Source of the DNA: a virus
Length of the DNA: 64,000 nt
Direction: 5' to 3' (one strand)
Virus record (IMG/VR): IMGVR_UViG_3300047089_000043
Coordinates: 1-64,000 of that record
This document shows positions 1-58,302 of the stretch, in pieces; position 1 is the first letter of the stretch, and every line of letters starts with the position of its first letter. A model generated the notes under the pieces. It did not search any database. It worked only from the letters and a program-made list of their open reading frames with translations, and was not told the origin of the DNA. The position numbers and the translations under genes were made by a program.

Positions 1-42
1 GTCCCCATTTCATTTTCTATAGACCTTGAATTTCTCGAGTTT

Positions 43-215: not shown

Positions 216-272
216 AGAGATGTCGTAACAATGATCTGGAACCCGTACAAACTCATTAGGAGGCTGATCGGC

Positions 273-581
273 ATGGGCAGACTCAGCAGCGATGATGACC
301 GCCCCCGCCCACAGCCTCATCAGTCTATGGGCATTATGACACCTGCGACAAAGAAGGTCAAAGAAGTCGTATCCGTGGTCGTAAAAAGGGTTTGGCGAGC
401 TTGTGACAAGTGCGGATATTCGCAGGTAGATGGCAAGCCTATCTCTCACGCAAAGTACCAGATCGAGGTTCCGGGCGGCGACCTGTATTTCTGCGCTCAC
501 CACTTCCGAGAGTACTCGACAAACTTCCTCGACAGGGGTTATCCGATCCACGACATTCAGGAGAAAGTAGCTGCCAAATGA
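273..581 (+). CDS. Small zinc-binding (DUF7455-like) protein
   Basis: Product of about 102 residues. The C-terminal half has CDKCGYS, a hydrophobic stretch, then GGDLYFCAHHF, the pattern of the small actinobacterial and phage DUF7455-like zinc domain (CxxC...G.L.FC.HH). The N-terminal third is polar and probably disordered. I chose ATG 273 because AGGAGG (258-263) lies 9 bases before it; an in-frame ATG at 231 would add 14 residues but has no good ribosome site. The stop overlaps the pup start (ATGA), so the two are probably co-translated. A relative is encoded at 58982-59206. Its role is unknown; placement next to pup and terminase is the main clue. Confidence 0.6.
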   Translation: MGRLSSDDDRPRPQPHQSMGIMTPATKKVKEVVSVVVKRVWRACDKCGYSQVDGKPISHAKYQIEVPGGDLYFCAHHFREYSTNFLDRGYPIHDIQEKVAAK

Positions 582-754
582 AAGAGCAAAAGAATAAGCC
601 AACTCCCAAGAATACCGAGGATACCGAGGATACTTCGATTCCAGCTCCCAAGGAATTCGATGCTATTGACGCGCTGCTTGACGAGATTGACGGAGTGCTC
701 GAAGAAAACGCAGAAGAATTCGTTCGCGGCTATGTGCAGAAGGGCGGGCAGTGA
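578..754 (+). CDS. pup: Prokaryotic ubiquitin-like protein Pup
   Basis: A 58-residue protein with a charged, proline-rich, probably disordered N-terminus (about residues 1-27) and a C-terminus that reads LLDEIDGVLEENAEEFVR followed by GYVQKGGQ and the stop. From memory this matches the C-terminal half of actinobacterial Pup almost residue for residue, including the terminal Gly-Gly-Gln. In hosts, Dop deamidates that Gln to Glu, PafA joins Pup to target lysines, and the Mpa coiled coil recognises the Pup helix and feeds tagged proteins to the 20S proteasome. No PafA, Dop, Mpa or proteasome gene is seen here, so it would have to use host enzymes. The ATG overlaps the upstream stop and its TGA overlaps the next ATG, tying its translation to packaging proteins. 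The identity is close to certain from the motif; its role in the phage is unknown. Confidence 0.93.
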   Translation: MKEQKNKPTPKNTEDTEDTSIPAPKEFDAIDALLDEIDGVLEENAEEFVRGYVQKGGQ

Positions 755-1032
755 TGGACCCCGGACAAGTCGAACAAGCTGTCAGGACTACGCTGACCGA
801 GTGGGGCATTCTCGAACCTACCGGCGCATGGGAAGTCATGGCGATCAATCTGGCGCAGGTTCTCGACGGAACTAATGCTACTTTCAAGATGAGCGGTGAC
901 GCTAAGTACGGCAAGGATGACAAAGTGGCAGTAGCGAGCGTCAACCGCGAGCTTCGCCTAACACTAGAAAAGGTCGAGGCAATGCCACGAGCTAAGGCAA
1001 CCGATAAAGAGTCGCTAGAGAACAAATATTGA
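754..1032 (+). CDS. terS: Terminase small subunit
   Basis: A 92-residue mostly helical protein starting MDPGQVEQAVRTTLTEWGIL, with later VNRELRLTLEKVEAM. The pattern (N-terminal EQAVRTxLxEWGI, central LAQVLD, C-terminal SREL-RLTLE-like helix) matches small terminase subunits of actinobacteriophages, which bind the packaging site on DNA and load the large subunit. The position, directly before an HNH gene and terL, supports it. ATG 754 overlaps the pup stop (TGATG); GTG 751 is an alternative one codon earlier. Confidence 0.7.
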   Translation: MDPGQVEQAVRTTLTEWGILEPTGAWEVMAINLAQVLDGTNATFKMSGDAKYGKDDKVAVASVNRELRLTLEKVEAMPRAKATDKESLENKY

Positions 1033-1033
1033 T

Positions 1034-1267
1034 ATGCCGAACGGGCACTATAAGAGCCCGGAATATCAGCGTAACAAGAAGAAGATGGTTTATCACGCTT
1101 GGCGTCACCAGCTCCCTTGCTGGCTCTGCCTGAAACCTTTCCGATACAAGGGCGATATCACCGCCGACCACGTTATACCGATATTCCTAGGCGGCACTCA
1201 TGCTTACGATAATCTTAAACCAGCCCACGACCTGTGTAATTCAACCAGGGAGTACGATCTTAAGTAG
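1034..1267 (+). CDS. HNH endonuclease of the packaging module
   Basis: A 77-residue protein with CWLC near residue 30, then ITADHVIPIFLGG and YDNLKPAHDLCNS, which is the full HNH betabeta-alpha metal fold with two zinc-knuckle cysteine pairs. Small HNH proteins next to terL are known in HK97-like and many other cos phages, where they work with terminase in cutting DNA at packaging. This gene is one base after terS and eight bases before terL. A free-standing homing role is less likely given this position. Confidence 0.85.
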   Translation: MPNGHYKSPEYQRNKKKMVYHAWRHQLPCWLCLKPFRYKGDITADHVIPIFLGGTHAYDNLKPAHDLCNSTREYDLK

Positions 1268-1275
1268 GGAAAACT

Positions 1276-2922
1276 ATGGCGCTAATTGGCGACCAGCGCC
1301 CCCGCCTTTACCATATCCCGAAGCACCACAATTTGGATGCAGGCAACGACGCTGTTGATTATGCAAAGCAGCACGGCCTAGATCTCGATGACTGGCAGCG
1401 ATATTCACTGAAACATGCGCTGGCCAGGGATGCCGATGGGCTGTGGTCTGCGTTTGAAGTTAAGCTTACCGTACCAAGGCAGAATGGTAAAGGCTCGATC
1501 TACGAAGCTAGGGAATTGTTCGGCCTATTCTGCATTAAGTCCGACCGCCTGCTCATTCATACCGCGCACGAACACAAAACTGCTAGCGAACACTATCAGC
1601 GAGTGTGGCGCTTGATCGAAAACAACCACGATTTGTATATGCAGATCGGTCGTCACTCGTCAGCCTATGGGCGCGAGTTCATCGAAACAAAACCAAAGCC
1701 CACCATTATCATTGGTTCCGGTGGCAAGCATGTCCTAGAAGATGCACGAAAGCGACTCATCTTTATTGCACGTAGCGCCGGTTCCGGTCGAGGATTCACC
1801 GGAGACTTTATCGCCTACGACGAAGACATGATTCTTGATGCGGGGAAAATCGGAGCTTCGCTCCCTTCCCTTTCAGCACGACCAAACCCCCAAGTATTTT
1901 ACGCTGGCTCAGCCGGTCTTAAAACTTCTACGCAGGCCGCTAAGGTCAGGCGTCGAGGGCTTGCAGGCACCAGCGATAGCCTGCTGTATATTGAGTATTC
2001 CGCTGACATATGCGACGAATACTGTGAATTTGATTGCGATAAGCATGATGATCCTGACAGTGAGGAAGCAGTAGCCCGAGCCAACCCAGGTTACGGCATT
2101 CGCATCACTAAGCGCTTTATCGAAAAGGAACGCGATGCGTTCGAGGGCGATGAACCTGAATGGTGGCGCGAACGTCTAGGCGTCGGACAGTGGCCTGCTG
2201 ATTCCGAGGGCTGGGCAGTTATCCCTGAGAAATGGTGGAAGCTCACAAAGGATAAGAGGGCCGAACCAGAGCGCGTACAGCGCCCCGTGTTCGCCGTTGA
2301 CATTGCGCTTGACCGCAGTTGTGCCGCTATTTCTGTCGCGGGATTCCGAGGTTCTGATAATCGAACTGGAATTCAGATCATCGAATTCAGGTCGGGTACG
2401 GGTTGGCTGCTTGCTCGAATTAAGGAGATCCACGAAAGGTGGAAGCCTATCAAGTGGATCATCGATAAGAGGGCCGCAGCAGGTTCGCTAATCACCGATA
2501 TGGAAAAGGCCGGGATTCCCGTAGAAACGTTGCAGGCTTCACAAGTCGCGCACGCTTCCGGGCTGCTGTATGATGCATTCAGGGATGATACCTTGAGGCA
2601 TTATGGTCAGGCTAGCTGGCGCACCGCTATCGCGGGTGCGGACTGGCGGAAGCTTAGCGAGTCGAGGGCGTTCGATCGTGTTAACGCCGGTTCGGAACAA
2701 GCTCCGCTGATGGCCGCAGCGTTCGCGTATTGGGGCTTTATGGAATTTGGTGATGAAGGCGACTACGACGCCGCTGATTCAGTTTACTTCGACCTTAAGC
2801 GGGTCGTTCAAATGTACCGATCAGGACATTACGGTCTGGAAGATATCCGCCGTCTTTACGAAAGAGGGATTATAGATGCAGATGACCTGGAAGCCTTGGC
2901 CGAAAAGGGCATCACTATCTAA
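1276..2922 (+). CDS. terL: Terminase large subunit
   Basis: A 548-residue packaging motor. The N-terminal ATPase has the Walker A variant VPRQNGKG (residues 66-73) and Walker B FIAYDEDM with catalytic Glu near 183. The C-terminal RNase H-like nuclease begins around VFAVDIALDRS (Asp near 342) and has later acidic residues such as DKRAAAGSLITDME. Length and order fit the HK97/phage Terminase_1 type. It pumps DNA into the prohead and cuts it. The end overlaps the next small membrane gene by 47 bases. Confidence 0.95.
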   Translation: MALIGDQRPRLYHIPKHHNLDAGNDAVDYAKQHGLDLDDWQRYSLKHALARDADGLWSAFEVKLTVPRQNGKGSIYEARELFGLFCIKSDRLLIHTAHEHKTASEHYQRVWRLIENNHDLYMQIGRHSSAYGREFIETKPKPTIIIGSGGKHVLEDARKRLIFIARSAGSGRGFTGDFIAYDEDMILDAGKIGASLPSLSARPNPQVFYAGSAGLKTSTQAAKVRRRGLAGTSDSLLYIEYSADICDEYCEFDCDKHDDPDSEEAVARANPGYGIRITKRFIEKERDAFEGDEPEWWRERLGVGQWPADSEGWAVIPEKWWKLTKDKRAEPERVQRPVFAVDIALDRSCAAISVAGFRGSDNRTGIQIIEFRSGTGWLLARIKEIHERWKPIKWIIDKRAAAGSLITDMEKAGIPVETLQASQVAHASGLLYDAFRDDTLRHYGQASWRTAIAGADWRKLSESRAFDRVNAGSEQAPLMAAAFAYWGFMEFGDEGDYDAADSVYFDLKRVVQMYRSGHYGLEDIRRLYERGIIDADDLEALAEKGITI

Positions 2923-3173: not shown

Positions 3174-4478
3174 ATGGGACTAGTTTTCCGAAGTAAAGAA
3201 GAACGGGGTTCGCTTGGAACTGGTGTAAGTAATACCCCGCTGTGGGGAATTTCTCAGTCGTCAGATCTAATTCCTCGCAGGGTTTACAATAACGGCGCTA
3301 GCGGTAGCGCCCCCGTTAATCTCGATACCGCAATGCGTAACTCCGCAGTATGGGCTGCGATCCGAATCAGGGCCGACCTGATTTCGACGTTGCCTTGGCG
3401 AGTTTACAGCGAGCTGAATTTGCCTGATACTAAGGTTCCTTACAAGATCGATGCTGCACCTACTCCGATGATGAGCGGAATTGATTTTATCCATTTCCTT
3501 TATTCGAGCCAGGTGGAGCTGGACCGAACAGGTAACGCTATCGGCATCATTAACCAGTGGGACGAGCGAACTAGGACACCGGCCGTTATTGAGCTAGTGC
3601 CAAGTTCGTCGGTAGTCATTAGTGCTAAGGGTATGAATATCACCAGTTACCGGATTAACGGCACTGAGTTCGACCCTAAGTTTATCTGGCATGAAAAGCA
3701 GTACACCGTCGCGGGCCTGCCCGTGGGCTTGAGCCCCGTTACATACGCGGCTTACACACTAGGGCAGTACAATTCCATTCAGGAATTTGCGACTGAGTTC
3801 TTTACGTCTGGTCAAGGACCCCGCGCCAGCTTGCAGAATACCCAGAAAAAGATCAACGACAAGGAAGCGGCAATCGTCGCAGAATCGTGGCGTGCATCGC
3901 AGGCTATGGATGAACCTTTCATTCACGGCAATGACTGGGAATACACGTTGCTGTCTGCGCAAGGTGCATCTAATGACTGGATCGAGGGCGCAAAGCTTAA
4001 CAGCGTTGACGTTGCCAGGTTCTTTAACGTACCTGCGGATATGATCGACGCTATTATCTCGGGCGGTTCGCACATCACCTATTCCAACATCATTCAGCGT
4101 AACCTGCAATTCCTGGTCATGCACCTGGGACCGACAATTACCCGGCGTGAAGCAAAGCTAACTGACATTCTTCCGCGCCCGAGGTTCTTTGAGTTTGACA
4201 CTGACTATCTTATGCGAATGGACCCGGTTACTAGGGCTGAATGGGTTAAGACCCAGATCGATTGTCGTGCAATCACAGTTACCGAGGCACGCGCCGTATT
4301 CGGCCGCGATCCGGCAAGTGATGACGACTACGAAGAATACTTTAAGGCAGGACTTGTCCACGGTAAGGCTTCGGCCATATTGCCCGGAGATCCCGGCGAC
4401 CCCAACGTCAACCCTGCAATCGACACTCAAATCGAAGGTGGAGCTAATAACCCACCGCCTAGCGGCTCCACTCCATAA
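3174..4478 (+). CDS. Portal protein (HK97 type)
   Basis: A 434-residue protein with MRNSAVWAAIRIRADLIS near residue 55 and later VARFFNVPADMID and SNIIQRNLQFL, features of the HK97-type phage portal family (Phage_portal). The dodecameric ring sits at one capsid vertex, is the channel for DNA and the base for the connector. The C-terminal tail (about 400-434) is Pro/Gly/Asn-rich and probably flexible. Position after terL and before the protease fits. Confidence 0.93.
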   Translation: MGLVFRSKEERGSLGTGVSNTPLWGISQSSDLIPRRVYNNGASGSAPVNLDTAMRNSAVWAAIRIRADLISTLPWRVYSELNLPDTKVPYKIDAAPTPMMSGIDFIHFLYSSQVELDRTGNAIGIINQWDERTRTPAVIELVPSSSVVISAKGMNITSYRINGTEFDPKFIWHEKQYTVAGLPVGLSPVTYAAYTLGQYNSIQEFATEFFTSGQGPRASLQNTQKKINDKEAAIVAESWRASQAMDEPFIHGNDWEYTLLSAQGASNDWIEGAKLNSVDVARFFNVPADMIDAIISGGSHITYSNIIQRNLQFLVMHLGPTITRREAKLTDILPRPRFFEFDTDYLMRMDPVTRAEWVKTQIDCRAITVTEARAVFGRDPASDDDYEEYFKAGLVHGKASAILPGDPGDPNVNPAIDTQIEGGANNPPPSGSTP

Positions 4479-4505: not shown

Positions 4506-5720
4506 ATGGCTACTATTGATTTCAGTACGTGGGACGCTAATAAGGCGTGGGCGGCAGGCGCAAGCTCAGACGATCCCGCAGCATTTTACGACGGTATTTG
4601 CGCGGGCAAGAAAGCGGGCGACCCGAAGACTCAGGCAGCCCATGCTTTGCCTTACCGCTACTCCCCGTCGAGCCCACCTAATGCCGCTGGCGTAAAGGCC
4701 GCGCTGTCTAGGCTTTCTCAGACTGACGGACTCACAAACAAGGCTGACGCTCAGACAAAGCTGGACGGTCTTCTGACAAAGGTGCAGGCTGCGGAAAAGA
4801 ATCGCATGTCAACTCTTGACGAAATGCGTAACTTCCGGCTAGAGCATTACCGGGATGTTCCCGGTGGAGAAATGCGCCGCAGGGGATTCCCGTCTGAGCT
4901 TCGAGGCAAGTACACTAAGCAGGATGGCCGATCGGTTTATGAGGTTGAAGGATACGCCACCATTTACAATCGCGGTTACGAAATGTGGGATATGGCCGGT
5001 CCGTATATGGAAGTGGTTGACCAGCATTCCCTAGACCGTTCTCTCGCACAGACTCCCGATGTAGCATTCTTGGTGAATCACCTGGGCGTCGCAATGGCGC
5101 GGTCGAGGTCCCGTAATGGTAATCCGACTCTGGTCCTTCGCAGCGATACTACAGGTATGCATATCCAAAGCTGGCTGAATGCCGAGAGGCAGGACGTTAA
5201 GGATCTGGCATCCGCCATTGATGACGGGATTGTCGATGAAATGTCGTTTGCATTCCGCATTGAGGATCACGTCTGGGATGACGATTACACGCAGCTTACC
5301 CTTAAGCAACTTAACATTAATCGCGGCGATGTCTCGGCAGTTAACTTCGGGGCTAATCCGTTTACCAGCATTGCAGCTCGCGCTGCTGACTGGCTTGAGG
5401 ATCTTGAGCACATGCCCGAAGTTGTCGTGCGTGAGGCTTTTAACCGACTGCATAGGCGCGGAGATTCCGTGACGCTAGTCCCCGAGATTAGGGATGCGGC
5501 CGAAACAGTGATCAGGCGCAATGCAGAACTGTACGCAAACGTAGCTCAGGCACATTCAGATGCCCAGCGCGTTCTTGACGATGCAGAAGAAGAACTGGCG
5601 TCGGCTCCCGAGCCTACTCACACCCGTTCGGCAGCCGCAGCTATGCGCGAGCTTAAGTCGATTAACAAAGATTACCGCAGGCAGCTCGACCAGCTTGACC
5701 GATCCGCCGAGATTGACTAA
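4506..5720 (+). CDS. HK97-type prohead protease
   Basis: A 404-residue protein. The core (about 115-290) carries VNHLG with His192 and DEMSFAF with Ser247, the catalytic pair of the HK97 prohead protease (peptidase S78), followed by VSAVNFGANPF. It would trim the capsid scaffold domain and itself after assembly. An extra N-terminal region (1-100) with repeated Ala-rich helices and a charged C-terminal region (290-404) with coiled-coil character make it longer than the minimal enzyme; the latter could act as scaffold. GAAAGGA precedes ATG 4506. Confidence 0.92.
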   Translation: MATIDFSTWDANKAWAAGASSDDPAAFYDGICAGKKAGDPKTQAAHALPYRYSPSSPPNAAGVKAALSRLSQTDGLTNKADAQTKLDGLLTKVQAAEKNRMSTLDEMRNFRLEHYRDVPGGEMRRRGFPSELRGKYTKQDGRSVYEVEGYATIYNRGYEMWDMAGPYMEVVDQHSLDRSLAQTPDVAFLVNHLGVAMARSRSRNGNPTLVLRSDTTGMHIQSWLNAERQDVKDLASAIDDGIVDEMSFAFRIEDHVWDDDYTQLTLKQLNINRGDVSAVNFGANPFTSIAARAADWLEDLEHMPEVVVREAFNRLHRRGDSVTLVPEIRDAAETVIRRNAELYANVAQAHSDAQRVLDDAEEELASAPEPTHTRSAAAAMRELKSINKDYRRQLDQLDRSAEID

Positions 5721-5897: not shown

Positions 5898-7352
5898 ATG
5901 AATATTAAGGAACTTGTCGCTTCCATGGAAATTGAGCTGGAAGCGGCTCAGCAGCGGGAAATGCGCGCCCGCAAGGAGATGGAGCTTATTCTAGCTACCA
6001 CTCAGCAGGAAATGCGCACCGACCTGTCTCCCGAGGAAGATGCACGCTTTGACTCGCTCAAGGATACTGTGCAGAATTCTCGCGTTGACCAGGCGTCCAT
6101 TGGGCGTAAGCTGGCTAAGGCACGTCAGGTACAGGCCGATGAGTCTCGTACCGATGATGACCTGCTTAAGGCTACTACGCCAGCGGGACTCCCGCAGCGT
6201 GACGCTACTACCCAGCGTGCTAGCGTTAGCGTCGGCCATGAGGAAACCACTTATCACAAGGGCAATGACCCGACTGGTAAGATGTTCCTGAACGACGTTG
6301 TACGCCAGTACACGACTAACGACGTTCGCGCCGCTGGTCGTCTACAGCAGCACATGCGCGAGGAACAGATTAACCGCGCCAGTGCGGGTATGGAACTGCG
6401 TGTCGGTGAAGTCGGAACTTCGGCTTTCTCCGGTCTGGTTGTTCCCCAGTACCTTATCGATATGGTTGCACCGGCAGTAGCCAACCTGCGTCCATTCGCG
6501 GACATGTGTAATCAGCACCCTCTGCCTGCTTCGGGTATGTCGCTGAATATCTCGCGTATTACGACCGCTTCGGGTACCGCACTACAGGCATCAGAATCTA
6601 ACGCCGTCCAGGCAACGCCTATGGACGACACTCTGCTGACCTTTAACGTGCAGACTGCTGCTGGCCAGCAGACTATTTCACGTCAGGCAATTGAGCGTGG
6701 AACTGGTATCGAAGACGTTGTAATGCAGGACCTTTTCCGTCAGTACGCAACTAGCCTTGACAGCACTCTGCTGAACCAGGCTACTACGGGTCTTGACGCA
6801 GTAGGTAACGCTACTACAGCGATTACCACTGCTGACCTGCCTACGCTGTATCCCGCGATTATGGGTGCGGCATCGCAGAGTGATACTGCGACCCGTGGGC
6901 TGGCCCATCCGACTCACGTCATTATGCACCCTCGCCGGTGGTTCTGGCTCCAGTCGCTTCTGACTAGCACCTGGCCTGCGTTTACTCAGCCGGGCGTCGC
7001 CCCCGACGCTAAGGCTGCTGGTGCTAACTCCGCGGCCCCGTACAATCAGGGCTCTAGCGGTGTTATGCCTAACGGTATGCAGGTTGTAACCGACGCTAAC
7101 GTGACTACTGTTGGACTGGCTGGTGCCCCTACGGGTGGTACCCAGGACCACATTTTCGTGGTTCCGCAGCAGGAATGTCACCTTTGGGAAGATGCCGGTA
7201 ACCCCGTTTACATTAGGGCCGAACAGCCCGCAGCAGCGTCCCTTGGCGTGTTGCTTGTGGTTTATGGCTACTTTGCATATACCTACCAGCGCTACGGCCT
7301 GGCAATTCAGAAGATCAACGGTGCTGCACTTGCTGCGCCTGCGGGATTCTAA
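5898..7352 (+). CDS. Major capsid protein (HK97 fold)
   Basis: A 484-residue protein. Residues 1-110 are charged and helical (a scaffolding delta-like domain probably removed by the protease), followed by the mature shell domain with GTSAFSGLVVPQYL near residue 175, a central LVVPQ...ANLRPFADM start and the long acceptor-rich C-terminus ending ...QKINGAALAAPAGF. Order after portal and protease and length fit the Phage_capsid family. GAAAGG lies before ATG 5898. It is bracketed by strong hairpins on both sides. Confidence 0.93.
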   Translation: MNIKELVASMEIELEAAQQREMRARKEMELILATTQQEMRTDLSPEEDARFDSLKDTVQNSRVDQASIGRKLAKARQVQADESRTDDDLLKATTPAGLPQRDATTQRASVSVGHEETTYHKGNDPTGKMFLNDVVRQYTTNDVRAAGRLQQHMREEQINRASAGMELRVGEVGTSAFSGLVVPQYLIDMVAPAVANLRPFADMCNQHPLPASGMSLNISRITTASGTALQASESNAVQATPMDDTLLTFNVQTAAGQQTISRQAIERGTGIEDVVMQDLFRQYATSLDSTLLNQATTGLDAVGNATTAITTADLPTLYPAIMGAASQSDTATRGLAHPTHVIMHPRRWFWLQSLLTSTWPAFTQPGVAPDAKAAGANSAAPYNQGSSGVMPNGMQVVTDANVTTVGLAGAPTGGTQDHIFVVPQQECHLWEDAGNPVYIRAEQPAAASLGVLLVVYGYFAYTYQRYGLAIQKINGAALAAPAGF

Positions 7353-7441: not shown

Positions 7442-8536
7442 ATGGTTAAGACCCCGCTTTCTGTCAGTGGCCGGTACATTGTTGATTCTGCTGGTCAGCG
7501 CGTAAAGCTTATTGGCGCGAACTGGAATGCTCATAATGATGTAATGGTTCCGGGCGGTCTTCACCTTCGGCACCGTGACCAGCTAGCCGATACAATTGCA
7601 TCATATGGGCTTAACTCTATCCGTCTTACTTTCGCCCTTAAGATGTTCGACGTGTCTACTCCAGTAGACGATACATTTATTAAGGCTAATCCTGATCTTA
7701 GCGGTGCTAATCCTTTCCAGGTATATCAGGCTTGTGTTAAGTCTCTGACGAATCATGGCATCATGGTTATCCCCAATTGTAGTCTGCTCTTTCCCGGCGT
7801 ATGTTGCGCTGATATTGACGGTAACGGTTTGTGGTGGAATAGCAACTGGCCCGCGTCAAAGTTTTACAATGGCTGGGTTAAAATGGCAATGACCTTTAAG
7901 GGTAATCCGCTGGTCATTGGATACGATCTAAAGAATGAGCCTCGCAATACAACTACGGCCGGTGTGACATATGAGCCAACGTGGGGTGACCAGAATTCTA
8001 AAACTGATTTCCGCCTAGCCTACGAAAAAGCTGGCCTAATGATCCATAGTGTTGACCCAACCTCACTTCTTTTCTGCGAAGGTCTGAGTTATGCTACGAA
8101 TCTTAAAAACGCGGCGTCTCAGCCTGTTATGTCAGCGAACAAGACAGTTTACTCGATGCATGACTACGCCTGGTTTCATACTGGCGGCATGACCTACGAC
8201 GATTACAAGGCCGCAATGGATGCTAACGGCGGATATCTCGTTAGGGATAATATCGCTCCGGTATGGATTGGTGAGTTCGGCATTGATATCGTTAATCCTC
8301 TGGGTCTGGGTGATACGTGGGTGGGGCACTTCTTTACATATGCCCGCGAGCGTGACCTAGACGTGTGCTGGTGGCTTCTTGACGGAACAGCTCATGTCGG
8401 GCATCAGCCAACAACTAACGTCCTTAAAGAAGCAGAAGGGGCCAGAGAAGGATTCGGCTTGCTTAAAGCTGACTGGACTAATCCGACCAACCTAGATGTT
8501 ATGTGTCAACTCAGGGCACTTCAAAACCAGGGATAA
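7442..8536 (+). CDS. Glycoside hydrolase family 5 (cellulase-like)
   Basis: A 364-residue protein that is nearly all one GH5 TIM barrel: VKLIGANWN (22-30), GLNSIRLTF (56-64), DLKNEPRN with acid/base Glu166, YSMHDYAWF (237-245) and VWIGEFGID with nucleophile Glu278. Both catalytic glutamates and the NEP motif are intact. GH5 enzymes cut beta-1,4-linked glucans, mannans and related chains. No signal peptide or membrane segment is seen, so it probably acts in the virion or in the lysed cell. GGAGGA precedes ATG 7442. Its position between capsid gene and further virion proteins suggests it may ride on the capsid. The exact substrate cannot be read from sequence. Confidence 0.9.
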   Translation: MVKTPLSVSGRYIVDSAGQRVKLIGANWNAHNDVMVPGGLHLRHRDQLADTIASYGLNSIRLTFALKMFDVSTPVDDTFIKANPDLSGANPFQVYQACVKSLTNHGIMVIPNCSLLFPGVCCADIDGNGLWWNSNWPASKFYNGWVKMAMTFKGNPLVIGYDLKNEPRNTTTAGVTYEPTWGDQNSKTDFRLAYEKAGLMIHSVDPTSLLFCEGLSYATNLKNAASQPVMSANKTVYSMHDYAWFHTGGMTYDDYKAAMDANGGYLVRDNIAPVWIGEFGIDIVNPLGLGDTWVGHFFTYARERDLDVCWWLLDGTAHVGHQPTTNVLKEAEGAREGFGLLKADWTNPTNLDVMCQLRALQNQG

Positions 8537-8540
8537 TTCA

Positions 8541-9167
8541 ATGAAAATTATTTGCTGCTATTCCAGCGAACCTCACCCGAAGACTGTGGAAGCAATCGAT
8601 AAGTTCGCACCCGATTGTGAATTCATCGAAACAAAAGGATTGTATGGTTACGGTGAAGTTATCACCGCGCACTGGACCGGCGAAGAAACTCTCGTAAATA
8701 TCGAGGGCGATAAGGAAATTACCGCAGAGGTGATTCCTTCGTTTCTCGATTGTGACGAACCGTGGTGTACTTTCGGTTGTAAGACTTTGCCGTCGCCTTA
8801 CCGGAAGCTAGTTTATCACGGTCTTTCGTGCGCAAAGTTTTCCGTGAAGTTGCAGCAGGTGGTTAAGCCCAAGGAATTCATCTGCGAAGATGTACCGTGG
8901 CAACCTTGTCGTCACTGTGCCAATAAGGGCTGCTGGAATCAGCTAGACGTGCGAATGGTACGAGCCTTTGAAGCGCACGGCGTAGACTTTCCCCACACTC
9001 ACGGGGTTATTAAGCACCACCATACTTACGATCTTGCATGGTGGCAGGAATGGCGGAAAGACTGGGATTTCCTTCAAGATACCGACGCCCGGCTCAGGGA
9101 AATTCATGCTAGGGCGTATCCTCGATTCCCTGGTATTGATGAAATTAACAAAGAAATGATATCTTGA
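8541..9167 (+). CDS. Possible glycosyltransferase-like protein
   Basis: A 208-residue soluble protein. The N-terminus (MKIICCYSS, then GYGEVITAHW and ETLVNIEGDKEIT around 35-60) resembles small phage and bacterial nucleotide-sugar transferases in which an I-E-x-D segment binds the sugar donor; CDEPWCTFGC (about 72-81) also resembles that group. The second half has CRHCANKGCW, a zinc-like cysteine cluster, and a His-rich HTHGVIKHHHTYD. It follows the GH5 gene by 4 bases. The family call rests on short motifs only; a capsid-modifying or unrelated role is possible. Confidence 0.45.
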   Translation: MKIICCYSSEPHPKTVEAIDKFAPDCEFIETKGLYGYGEVITAHWTGEETLVNIEGDKEITAEVIPSFLDCDEPWCTFGCKTLPSPYRKLVYHGLSCAKFSVKLQQVVKPKEFICEDVPWQPCRHCANKGCWNQLDVRMVRAFEAHGVDFPHTHGVIKHHHTYDLAWWQEWRKDWDFLQDTDARLREIHARAYPRFPGIDEINKEMIS

Positions 9168-40677: not shown

Positions 40678-40703
40678 CAGATCGCCGCCCAGTATGGTAA
40701 GGT
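40674..40703 (+). promoter_or_regulatory. Promoter of rtcB
   Basis: TTGACA (40674-40679), an 18-base spacer ending AGTATGG, and TAAGGT (40698-40703). The -10 region block AGTATGGTAAGGT nearly equals that of the promoter at 31997. Transcript would start about 25 bases before rtcB ATG 40735. Confidence 0.8.
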
Positions 40704-40734
40704 GGATCTAGCAGGTTCACAGAAAGAGGATTCA

Positions 40735-41886
40735 ATGGGAAACATTACAAGGATTAATGATCATCTGCTTGTGTGGGGTGCAGCGAATATCGATCCAGCG
40801 GCGATCAGTCAAGCCTGTGATGTTGCTAGTCTGCCTTTTGTGGTCGGTCATGCGTCCCTGATGCCTGACGGTCATGTAGGCTTCGGTCCTATTGGCCTGG
40901 TCCTCCCGACTAAGGGTGCGGTTGTTCCGTCACTCGTTGGGGTTGACATCGGGTGCGGCATGATCGCGCTTGAGACTAACCTAACGCTGGACGATCTTCC
41001 TGATTCACTCGACAAGCTTTACGCGCTGATCGCGAAGGCGATTCCGGCAGGCGTCGGTCAGGGATTTGATGCGCGGGACCATAATCTGCCTGACATTAAC
41101 CGTGTTAATCTCGACCAAAAGGAATTGTCGCGAGCGGAAACGCAGTTTGGTACTCTGGGCTCTGGTAACCATTTCGTAGAGCTGTGCGTGGATGAGCGCG
41201 GCCATATCTGGCTAGTGCTGCATTCAGGTTCTCGCGGCGTGGGTAACCTCATCGCGAAGAAGCACATGGATACCGCACGAGAGCTTATGAAGCTGTACCA
41301 CATCAAGCTTAACGACCCGACGTATTCATATCTGGTCGAAGGTACTCCTGAATTCGAGGCGTACATTAATGACATGCTGTGGGCGCAGGACTACGCAATG
41401 GGTAACCGCGTGAAGATGATGCGGAATGCTTTCCAGTCGCTAGTCAAGGTAGTTCCTCATGCGTCGGTTATGCAGCAGATTAACTGCCACCATAACTACT
41501 GCGAAAAGGAACACCACCTTGGGCAGGATGTTTGGCTGACCCGTAAGGGCGCGATTCGTATGCGTCTTGGTGACATGGGGATTATCCCCGGCTCTATGGG
41601 TACGAACACGTATATCGTTCGTGGCCTGCAAAGTGACGCGGCGTTCCATTCAGCATCTCACGGTGCGGGGCGTAAGATGTCACGGCGTCAGGCACGGGAA
41701 ACCTTTTCGCCTTCTGACTTGCGGTATGCAATGTCGGATAAGACGTGGGGAACTATGTCCGCGAAGAAGCTGACTGACGAGCATCCCGGTGCTTACAAGT
41801 CGATCAAGGATGTTATGGCATCGCAGTCGGACTTGTGTGCAATTGAGCACGAGCTGACTCAGGTGCTAAACTACAAGGGAGCTTAA
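40735..41886 (+). CDS. rtcB: RtcB-type RNA ligase
   Basis: A 383-residue protein. GVDIGCGM (manganese Cys), LGSGNHF, HSGSRGVG, INCHHNY, GSMGTNTYIVRG and SHGAGR (the last two framing the GTP/guanylylated-His centre) are the RtcB motifs in order and intact. RtcB joins 2',3'-cyclic phosphate ends to 5'-OH ends, as left by ribotoxins that cut tRNA. It has its own strong promoter and AAAGAGGA ribosome site. Likely counters host tRNA-cutting defence (inference). Confidence 0.95.
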   Translation: MGNITRINDHLLVWGAANIDPAAISQACDVASLPFVVGHASLMPDGHVGFGPIGLVLPTKGAVVPSLVGVDIGCGMIALETNLTLDDLPDSLDKLYALIAKAIPAGVGQGFDARDHNLPDINRVNLDQKELSRAETQFGTLGSGNHFVELCVDERGHIWLVLHSGSRGVGNLIAKKHMDTARELMKLYHIKLNDPTYSYLVEGTPEFEAYINDMLWAQDYAMGNRVKMMRNAFQSLVKVVPHASVMQQINCHHNYCEKEHHLGQDVWLTRKGAIRMRLGDMGIIPGSMGTNTYIVRGLQSDAAFHSASHGAGRKMSRRQARETFSPSDLRYAMSDKTWGTMSAKKLTDEHPGAYKSIKDVMASQSDLCAIEHELTQVLNYKGA

Positions 41887-52217: not shown

Positions 52218-53831
52218 GTGGCGCGGCTTTTGACTAGTAACTATACAAAGGACTTGATAATTCCGAGCCCTCCGCGCAAAGATGAGTACTACGAATATCT
52301 AGGAAAGCAGCCTTTGCGGATTCTTTCCGTGATTCTTTTCGTCCTGTCGATGGGCGTCGTTTACGGCATCCTGTCGATTGGCCTAGTCTGGTATCCGCTC
52401 CTGTTCCTGCTGATTGTACTTGTTCCCTGGACTATTTACATCGTAGCCCTAGCCACATACCGACCTAGGATTACCTGGGAATCTCACGAAAAGGTTAAGG
52501 TAGCTGGTGAGTTTATGCTTAGCTCGTCAGTGGATATTCTCGTGCCGGTGTGTGGTGAGGATTTGCGGATCATTGAAAATACGCTAAGGAATGTTACGGC
52601 GATTAAGTGGCAGGGGCGGTTGAGGATTTATGTTCTTGACGATGGCGGGTCACTAGCCGTAAAGAAATTGGCCGCGAAGTATGCAGCCAACTACCGCACT
52701 AGGCCAGATCGACCGGCCCACAGGAAATCGGGAAATCTGAATTATGGATTGTCTCACAGCGATGCAGAATTCGTCGTTGTCTTTGACGCGGACTTTGCGC
52801 CCGCTCCCGATTTTCTGCTTGAGCTAATGCCGTACATGCTTTACGAAAATATTGGCATTGTGCAGTCTACGCAATACTTCGACGTGAAGATGCGACAAAC
52901 ACGAAACTGGATTCAGCAATTGTCAGGTTCAATGCAGGATATGTTTTTCTGCTGGGCTCAGCCTGCGCGGAATACAGCGGATGCTGCGATGTGTGTCGGA
53001 ACCAATGTGATTTACCGGCGCTCAGCGCTTAAGGCTATCGGCGGATTTCCACGGGTAGACGATGGTGGCGAAGATATTGTCACCGGGCTAGATATGTATT
53101 CCGAAGGGTTCCGCACCATTTATGTCCCGGTGAATCTGGCTAAGGGCGTATGCCCTGATAATTTCGATTCGGCGGTTAACCAGCAATACCGCTGGGCACT
53201 ATCAACGTTGAAACTATTTATCGGTAAGAATCCTTACAGCAAGGCGCTTAGGGATGCACCACTAGACATCGGCCAGCGTATTGTTTTCTGGTCCGGTGCA
53301 TTGTACTATGCTCAGTCGATTCTGGTGCTGATCATAGCAGTCGTGCCCAGCATTATCATGCTGTGGTTTTATCCGTACCTGGTCGGAATAGGTAACTATC
53401 TTCCAATCGCCCCGGCATTGGTGGGCATGTTCGCATTGCCCTTGATTATCCGTGGATGGCGACCTGCCACTTTGAGAATCATTGTGGTCTATTCGGTGGC
53501 TCATTTGCTGGCGGCAATCGATACCTTCCGAAACACCCGATTTCACTGGATAGCGAGCGGAGCGAATACGAGTTCTGGGAGTGTTCCTCGACGGGCAGGT
53601 TGGACGGTACGAAGCTGGGTGCTGATTTCTCAGGTGGTAACGTGGGTTGGCATTATTCATGGATTGCCAACGTATAGCTGGGCGACATATTGGCCCGCCG
53701 TAGTCTTGACTACCTTTCAGACTATAGTCCTGTTTCCGTTGCTGCTACCCAATTACGGCATTGTGGCGCAGCCTGCCTTGCTACCTCACTTTGCACGTAA
53801 GCGTTACAGGGCGTGGAAATGGCAAAGGTAA
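52218..53831 (+). CDS. Cellulose-synthase-like processive GT2 glycosyltransferase
   Basis: A 537-residue membrane enzyme. Two N-terminal membrane helices (about 33-80), a GT-A domain with VLDDGGS (Asp141-142), VVFDADFAP (Asp190, Asp192), GEDIVTG (Glu285, Asp286) and QQYRW (QxxRW, 322-326), then about six more membrane helices (345-520). All four motifs for processive beta-glycan synthesis (cellulose, curdlan, hyaluronan type) are intact. It lacks a PilZ domain. GTG 52218 is the probable start. It overlaps the GH16 gene by 13 bases. It probably makes or remodels a cell-surface glycan during infection. Product cannot be read from sequence. Confidence 0.9.
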   Translation: MARLLTSNYTKDLIIPSPPRKDEYYEYLGKQPLRILSVILFVLSMGVVYGILSIGLVWYPLLFLLIVLVPWTIYIVALATYRPRITWESHEKVKVAGEFMLSSSVDILVPVCGEDLRIIENTLRNVTAIKWQGRLRIYVLDDGGSLAVKKLAAKYAANYRTRPDRPAHRKSGNLNYGLSHSDAEFVVVFDADFAPAPDFLLELMPYMLYENIGIVQSTQYFDVKMRQTRNWIQQLSGSMQDMFFCWAQPARNTADAAMCVGTNVIYRRSALKAIGGFPRVDDGGEDIVTGLDMYSEGFRTIYVPVNLAKGVCPDNFDSAVNQQYRWALSTLKLFIGKNPYSKALRDAPLDIGQRIVFWSGALYYAQSILVLIIAVVPSIIMLWFYPYLVGIGNYLPIAPALVGMFALPLIIRGWRPATLRIIVVYSVAHLLAAIDTFRNTRFHWIASGANTSSGSVPRRAGWTVRSWVLISQVVTWVGIIHGLPTYSWATYWPAVVLTTFQTIVLFPLLLPNYGIVAQPALLPHFARKRYRAWKWQR

Positions 53832-54643
53832 AAGCAGCCGCAATCAGTTTTCTAATTCTCTTGATAACATTCACTGTTATCATTCCGCTTTTTATAGGAG
53901 GCAATATGACTAATTGGTCTGATGAATTTGATGGTCCCGCTGGGACTCCACCGGACACAAACACATGGACGTTTGTGGATAATCAGCCGCCCGGTGGTGG
54001 CAATAACGAACTTGAGTATTACATTCCAGAAGGTACCGCACTCGACGGTCAGGGAAGACTAGCTATTACCGCTAGGCGCGACAATGGAACGTACCCGGCA
54101 TGGTACGGCCCATCGCAGTTTACCAGCGGAAAGATCTGGACTCGCGGTAAGGTCGCTTTCAGGTATGGCCATGTTGAGGTTAGGGCACAGATCCCGCAAG
54201 CGGGGCAGCCCGGTACATGGCCCGCCATTTGGATGATGGGTGAGGATTTGCCTGATGTTGGCTGGCCGAAGTGCGGCGAGATCGACATTATGGAGTCGTT
54301 TGGAGTTAACAAGTCTAAGGTGACATTCAGCTCAGCGCTGCATACGCCTACGGATAATCCGGCGCAGACTTACACGCTGCCAGCGACTAACGACCTTACC
54401 CAGTGGCACAATTTCGCATTGGACTGGCAGCCTACTGTGCTGTCATTCAGCGTTGACGGGCAGACTTACTGGACTGTTCACAAGTCTGATTTCAGGACGT
54501 GGCCGTTCGATAAGCCGTTCTTCCTGATCCTGAATTACGCGGTTGGCGGGCAGATGGGCGGGGATATTCCTGCTAGTGCCCCGCTGCCTTATACCATGAG
54601 CGTATCTTATGCCAAGGTTTACAATTCGGAAATCACCAAATGA
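53819..54643 (+). CDS. Membrane-anchored GH16 glucanase
   Basis: A 274-residue protein from ATG 53819: a membrane helix (residues 6-27) then a GH16 domain with NNELEYY, ITARRDNGTYP, YGHVEVRAQIP, WPAIWMMGED and GEIDIMES with Glu154, Asp156 and Glu159 (nucleophile and acid/base), then FALDWQP and FLILNYAVGG. Laminarinase/lichenase-type GH16 enzymes cut beta-1,3 or mixed beta-glucans. A second in-frame ATG at 53906, after a perfect AGGAGG, would give a soluble 245-residue form without the anchor. Coupled to the synthase gene upstream, so it may trim or release its product. Confidence 0.9.
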   Translation: MAKVKAAAISFLILLITFTVIIPLFIGGNMTNWSDEFDGPAGTPPDTNTWTFVDNQPPGGGNNELEYYIPEGTALDGQGRLAITARRDNGTYPAWYGPSQFTSGKIWTRGKVAFRYGHVEVRAQIPQAGQPGTWPAIWMMGEDLPDVGWPKCGEIDIMESFGVNKSKVTFSSALHTPTDNPAQTYTLPATNDLTQWHNFALDWQPTVLSFSVDGQTYWTVHKSDFRTWPFDKPFFLILNYAVGGQMGGDIPASAPLPYTMSVSYAKVYNSEITK

Positions 54644-57573: not shown

Positions 57574-57676
57574 CTTTGGAATTGGCTCAGCGATAACGTT
57601 CATCGTATCGGTGGCGATAGCAGGATGGGGCATTGCCGCTATTCTGGGTGCACTGATCCTGACAGGAGTACTATGA
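57566..57676 (+). CDS. Single-span membrane peptide
   Basis: A 36-residue peptide from TTG 57566 with GGAGG at a 6-7 base distance; almost all of it is one hydrophobic helix (AITFIVSVAIAGWGIAAILG). Its stop overlaps the thyX ATG. Translation likely from the ribosome site; function unknown. Confidence 0.45.
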   Translation: MDDFGIGSAITFIVSVAIAGWGIAAILGALILTGVL

Positions 57677-58302
57677 GTGACGCTATTGCAAGAGCGGAAC
57701 CAATGGGCGATGGCATCGGTTTTATTGAGCTGATTGGTTTCCTGGGCTCCGACCTTACCATCGTTAATGCGGCGCGAGTTTCATACAGCAAACGGTCCGA
57801 GGTAATGGATCTAAAGGCTATCAAGCTTATCGACTACCTGATGCGCAATGAACACGGCTCACCTTTCGAGCACGTCATCTTTCAGTTCCGCGTTAGGGCT
57901 CCGCTGTACGTAGTCCAGCAATGGGAACGTCACCGCATCGCGAGTTACAATGAGGAAAGCGGAAGGTACATTGAATTGCGTACCGACTTCGCTATTCCTC
58001 TTGGTGCTGAGCACGTAGGTGTCTATCAGCAGACATACGATCTATGTGCTGCCACTTACCAATGGTTGCTCGACCACGGTGAGACAAAGGAAAGCGCGCG
58101 GGCGGTTCTGCCCCTAGCCCTTTACAAGGAATTCTACGTGACCATGAACGCTAGGGCACTAATGAACTTCCTTCACTTGCGGAATGACGATCACGCGCAA
58201 GACGATATCAGAGCTTACGCCGCTGCCATGGAAGAAATGTTTTCCACTTTTCTGGCATTTACCGGCGAGAGTTTTAATCGATACAACAGGAAGGTGCCGT
58301 AA
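57673..58302 (+). CDS. thyX: Flavin-dependent thymidylate synthase ThyX
   Basis: A 209-residue enzyme with the ThyX motif RHRIASYNEESGRY (residues 86-99) and HGSPFEHVIFQFRVRAP before it, and FLHLRNDDHAQDDIR near the end. It makes dTMP from dUMP using FAD, folate and NADPH. ATG 57673 follows AGGAG. Together with dCMP deaminase it secures dTTP. Confidence 0.95.
   Translation: MSDAIARAEPMGDGIGFIELIGFLGSDLTIVNAARVSYSKRSEVMDLKAIKLIDYLMRNEHGSPFEHVIFQFRVRAPLYVVQQWERHRIASYNEESGRYIELRTDFAIPLGAEHVGVYQQTYDLCAATYQWLLDHGETKESARAVLPLALYKEFYVTMNARALMNFLHLRNDDHAQDDIRAYAAAMEEMFSTFLAFTGESFNRYNRKVP

Follow-up and report, generated by a model that had tools for sequence, protein, structure and literature searches.

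Pupylation, a form of ubiquitin-like tagging, is linked to the proteasome of bacteria. The fold of the prokaryotic ubiquitin-like protein (Pup) is unrelated to that of ubiquitin, and the Pup ligase is unrelated as well. Eukaryotic viruses such as baculoviruses carry ubiquitin genes, while the enzymes for attachment are those of the host. A viral Pup would be comparable in this respect, as a modifier that is carried by the virus and attached by host enzymes.

In the bacterial genomes that have been surveyed, pup is invariably located beside a pafA homolog (PMC2588565). A phage-borne protein is present in Streptomyces phage Dagobah (HUN42_00036, MT711977), and is named 'ubiquitin-like protein Pup' in a GenBank note. 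The paper on the Dagobah genome does not mention Pup (PMC7650747). A search of openly available papers, which covered few subscription papers and no bioRxiv preprints, yielded none on viral Pup.

The stretch of DNA analysed here (the window) comprises the first 64,000 nucleotides of the IMG/VR virus record IMGVR_UViG_3300047089_000043, which is 96,289 bases (96.3 kb) long. Translation of positions 578-754 on the + strand gives a protein of 58 residues, followed by TGA (MKEQKNKPTPKNTEDTEDTSIPAPKEFDAIDALLDEIDGVLEENAEEFVRGYVQKGGQ). The original prediction had assigned this gene as a complete Pup inside a phage packaging operon, and had proposed a Pup profile search as a check. The protein has a score of 69.5 bits (E = 4.7e-19) against the Pfam family PF05639 (Pup), well above the cut-off of 27, and 68.2 bits (E = 4.4e-19) against the NCBIfam Pup equivalog TIGR03687 (cut-off 41.45). 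Terminase, portal and capsid genes are located downstream, and the assignment is therefore correct in both respects. PHROGs v4 has no family that matches the window Pup.

The last 31 residues had been described as close to host Pup, and residues 28-58 indeed show 90% identity to the best host Pup. Full-length identity to the closest aligned host Pup is only about 62%, because the N-terminal half of the window Pup differs from those of the hosts. In an alignment with the crystallised Pup fragment 7oxy_B, 24 of the 28 C-terminal residues are equal. This fragment, which has been seen bound to Dop, is nearly identical to the core of the window Pup (PMC8599861). At the level of the sequence, the core that binds PafA and Dop is thus present. 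The lysine beside Gly-Gly (Lys61 in Mtb Pup) is present as well, and the protein has the C-terminal Gly-Gly-Gln/Glu of Pup, ending in QKGGQ directly before the stop codon. These results confirm that the gene encodes a genuine Pup, in which the C-terminal core is intact and the last residues are Gly-Gly-Gln.

The window Pup is similar to bacterial Pup (Mycobacterium, Corynebacterium) in the C-terminal core and the Gly-Gly-Gln end. It differs from them in being encoded by a phage, in not being located beside dop, pafA or prcBA, and in its diverged N-terminal half, which includes a PxPKEFD motif (Table 1). With Dagobah Pup it shares a location in a phage that has neither ligase nor depupylase. 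In comparison, Dagobah Pup has 78 residues and a QVGGE end (lysine lost, Glu end), and its gene is located between those for an endolysin and a primase.

Table 1. Features of the pup locus in the window.
Feature	Position	Strand	Basis
Left physical genome end (cohesive end)	1..10	.	Joined-end contigs L090, L091; L089 begins at same base
DUF7455 gene (CxxC ... CxxH, probably zinc ribbon), 4-nt overlap with pup	231..581	+	PF24254, 6.6e-9
pup (58 aa), prokaryotic ubiquitin-like protein, complete, QKGGQ end	578..754	+	Translation, Pfam, NCBIfam, 7oxy_B alignment
PxPKEFD motif (residues 22-28)	641..661	+	Kept in window group; not seen in host Pups compared
Conserved Pup core (residues 28-58), read by PafA/Dop	657..751	+	<=90% identity to host Pups; dN/dS mostly 0.03-0.15 in window group
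Downstream gene, 92 aa (92-93), usual small-terminase place, identity unproven	754..1032	+	Conserved in relatives
HNH endonuclease	1034..1267	+	PF01844, 7e-9
Terminase large subunit	1276..2922	+	phrog_9, 4.6e-60
Portal protein	3174..4478	+	PF04860, 4.6e-45
Prohead protease	4506..5720	+	PF04586, 1.6e-18
Major capsid protein	5898..7352	+	phrog_2263, 2.2e-54

The upstream DUF7455 gene and pup share four nucleotides (ATGA), and the stop codon of pup shares one nucleotide with the ATG of the downstream gene (TGATG; TAATG in relatives). The original prediction had pointed to these overlaps. Both persist in relatives, even with the stop changed to TAA, and the start/stop coupling of pup is therefore conserved. 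The two neighbours had been described as a zinc protein and the small terminase. The first description agrees with the DUF7455 match, which is probably a zinc ribbon. The second is unproven, because the downstream protein has no match among the Pfam, PHROGs and NCBIfam models and its AlphaFold model has low confidence (pLDDT 52).

Two contigs, L090 (9421) and L091 (5388), join both genome ends, with the 7 nucleotides CCTCTTG located between GCCGAC (right end) and GTCCCC (left end). Moreover, the first base of a second phage, L089, is the left-end base of the window record. These observations suggest that the window record is a complete genome with 7-nt cohesive ends (cos-type), in which the second gene, counted from the left end, is pup, ahead of the terminase. 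Records of this kind are classed as linear fragments in the database. A scan for promoters and terminators gave no more than would be expected by chance; late production of the window Pup would follow from the position of the gene only.

The window phage also encodes several other enzymes. A glycoside hydrolase of family 5 (cellulase-type; PF00150, 1.7e-27) is located at window 7442-8536, among the head genes and directly after the major capsid gene, and a GH16 protein at window 53813-54643 (PF00722, 1.7e-17). RtcB RNA ligase (window 40702-41886), ThyX (window 57625-58302) and a B12-dependent ribonucleotide reductase (8896-10968 of L088, the right end of the record) are encoded as well. A protein with no Pfam match at window 8541-9167 is alike by eye to one at 1484-2113 of L254, in two otherwise different Pup-carrying phages.

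No homolog of the Pup_ligase family (PafA/Dop) was found in the 96.3 kb window record, nor in any of the 54 viral sequences searched (53 IMG/VR contigs and Dagobah). As a control, the identical search was positive in a Corynebacterium genome and in the bacterial record MT835496 (see below). Many of the Pup contigs are fragments, although several are longer than 60 kb. For this reason absence from a single contig is weak evidence, while absence from all 54 is not. The window pup has no adjoining PafA homolog, unlike bacterial pup loci; this is a habit of the locus rather than a feature of the protein.

Two scans of IMG/VR with Pup profiles found Pup in 53 contigs. Together with Dagobah, these give 40 distinct sequences, in 31 groups at 70% identity. 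Ten viral Pups, the majority of them divergent, were rescanned, and all ten are above the Pfam cut-off. The window sequence is identical over 10.7 kb to a separate IMG/VR record, and several further relatives share the operon. On the other hand, about 39 more distant terminase relatives that have upstream sequence lack pup. Among 50,697 phage records, Dagobah is the one genuine isolate with Pup. The phage nature of the largest Pup contigs, L105 (296 kb) and L107 (174 kb), is unproven here.

Several other candidates were rejected. The GenBank record MT835496.1 ('Bacteriophage sp.', 159 kb; L003) is bacterial and looks misfiled; its Pup has a gene of the Pup-ligase family on either side. The second Pup of a Bowdeniella MAG (L129) belongs to a host Dop-Pup-PafA operon, as read from the sequence, and not to a prophage. 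Full-length matches in Aeromicrobium and Bowdeniella (L007, L008) are located in host proteasome or Dop/PafA loci. The sole plasmid match is a chromosome-sized record of 11.9 Mb.

The neighbours of pup in the other phages were confirmed with PHROGs. Packaging or head genes are located beside pup in ten groups, of which five or more have different terminases. The adjoining genes are for terminase, portal or other head proteins in L005/L006, L106, L108, L111, L115, L119, L254, L265 and the window group; L116 has packaging/head genes here too, as read by sequence. Endolysins adjoin pup in six groups (Dagobah, L114, L126, L247, L248 and L251), and dCMP deaminase, ThyX and ribonucleotide reductase are found near it in L112, L102, L246 and L098. 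L103 and its relatives encode UvsY, a tail tube and a T4-type capsid upstream of pup, and a UvsW-type helicase downstream. In the T4-like contigs (L103, L120-L125, L127 and L128), pup is flanked by uvsY and the gene for the uvsW-type helicase, and Arg replaces the usual lysine. Viral Pup is found in phages that are unrelated to each other.

A location beside the terminase in related phages, a point raised with the original prediction, is found in the several relatives that share the operon. It does not extend to L093, which is related to the window phage by DNA matches to window 46-58 kb and has pup among genes of the replication region, not at the left end. Therefore, pup is a cargo gene that is able to move.

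For pairs with unsaturated dS, dN/dS over the last 31 codons is 0.03-0.15 within the window group; the T4-like group gave 0.02-0.14. Two comparisons that involve L108 gave 0.36 and 0.76, with few substitutions. With dN/dS values of mostly 0.02-0.15, the core of viral Pup shows purifying selection. The Pup tree is based on few columns and is poorly supported. The T4-like group is located among host Pups, and 24 of the 38 phage Pups are apart from the hosts, with weak support. The starred branches of the tree require three or more switches between host and phage. These branches and the position of the T4-like group make more than one origin of viral Pup likely.

There are differences between phage and host Pups near the C-terminus. 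The lysine beside Gly-Gly is present in all 137 distinct host sequences, and is lost in 9 of the 31 phage groups. It is replaced by Arg (T4-like group, L105, L112 and L244), Ala (L005), Val (Dagobah), Gln (L114 and L110) or Ser (L251). The loss in Dagobah most likely occurred in phages, as the sister sequence L113 keeps the lysine. At the level of lineages, with strict clustering of the hosts, the difference (9/31 phage and 0/12 host, p = 0.044) is weakly significant, because a single cluster at 70% contains 125 of the 137 host Pups. Mycobacteria pupylate free Pup on Lys61, and the K61R mutation abolishes di-Pup with similar conjugation to PanB (PMC4783102). As a result, loss of the lysine fits a tag that is conjugated yet not spent on itself.

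A Glu end is found in 22 of 38 phage forms as compared to 42 of 137 host forms; Pup with this end does not need to be deamidated by Dop (PMC3511204). Gln or Glu after Gly is kept at the terminus of all complete phage Pups. The window Pup has neither the lysine loss nor the Glu end, and would thus depend on host Dop for its use. Residues 21-51 of Mtb Pup tend to be helical and bind Mpa (PMC3769308), on which they form a helix. The C-terminal part of this segment is conserved in the window Pup, and the two prolines of PxPKEFD are located in its first part. These prolines may disturb the binding of Mpa, which, if so, would argue against re-aimed degradation.

The conserved part read by PafA and Dop, the lack of viral enzymes and the selection on the core make a viral substrate for the host tagging enzymes the simplest model. 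We consider it probable, with some reserve, that the window gene encodes an orphan viral Pup, which is conjugated by host PafA and diverts or swamps pupylation. During infection, host Dop would deamidate Pup of the window type, with its Gln end, a step that the Glu-ended phage Pups would skip. Host PafA, assumed together with a proteasome to be present in the host of the window phage, would then join the phage Pup to lysines in the infected cell. This second, viral source of the tag would divert the tagging and proteasome (or Mpa) machinery of the host, which would be either re-aimed or swamped such that phage proteins escape turnover. The tagging or flooding of the host system, as originally proposed, agrees with the conservation of the core, the purifying selection and the lack of ligase and depupylase in the viral records. 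The rarity of Pup in cultured phages, though thousands of them infect hosts with pupylation, counts against this model.

Phage Pup could also be a pure decoy, a substrate mimic that occupies PafA, Dop or Mpa without lasting conjugates and protects phage proteins from being pupylated. In line with a decoy, conservation in phage Pup is in the binding core, and mycobacteriophages are rich in lysine-poor proteins, for which avoidance of pupylation has been suggested (PMC10665810, 2023). A decoy has no need of the reactive C-terminal Gln or Glu, yet this residue is in all complete phage forms, many with the ready Glu, and we regard this explanation as unlikely. A chance-acquired host gene that is unused, a neutral or transient passenger, would be in keeping with the overall rarity of pup, its variable location and the distant terminase relatives that lack it. 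The low dN/dS values, the conserved start/stop coupling and the occurrence in 31 sequence groups make such a passenger quite improbable.

The packaging and head genes that adjoin pup in ten groups, with at least five different terminases among them, are the basis for considering a role in head assembly, with Pup as a removable tag or partner. This part of the original prediction is disfavoured by the variable location of pup, which adjoins lysis genes in six groups and genes of nucleotide or DNA metabolism or of recombination in others, and is in the replication region of L093. The terminal Gln/Glu points to PafA and Dop instead, and a capsid or packaging factor is highly improbable. Misassembly of a host pup into a viral contig does occur in principle, as MT835496 illustrates. 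For the window it is refuted by the separate record with the identical sequence, the relatives with the same operon, the flanking phage genes and the absence of dop and pafA from the record, and its probability is negligible.

The presence of orphan Pup in about 30 other viral sequence groups suggests that viruses repeatedly exploit host protein tagging. The wider proposal is that the use of Pup as a stand-alone effector has arisen repeatedly among many kinds of phages, with host PafA attaching viral instead of host Pup. Several lineages would have tuned it through loss of the self-tagging lysine and a ready Glu end, such that pupylation in the infected cell works for the virus. We consider this proposal as likely as not. 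The natural variants, chiefly the loss of the lysine that is invariant in hosts, hint at a gain for the virus. With a viral Pup that is recurrent, selected and free of its own enzymes, the role of pupylation in infection is directly testable, using cultured Dagobah on Streptomyces coelicolor. If the stand-alone effector reading is true, pupylation would be a field of conflict between phages and bacteria.
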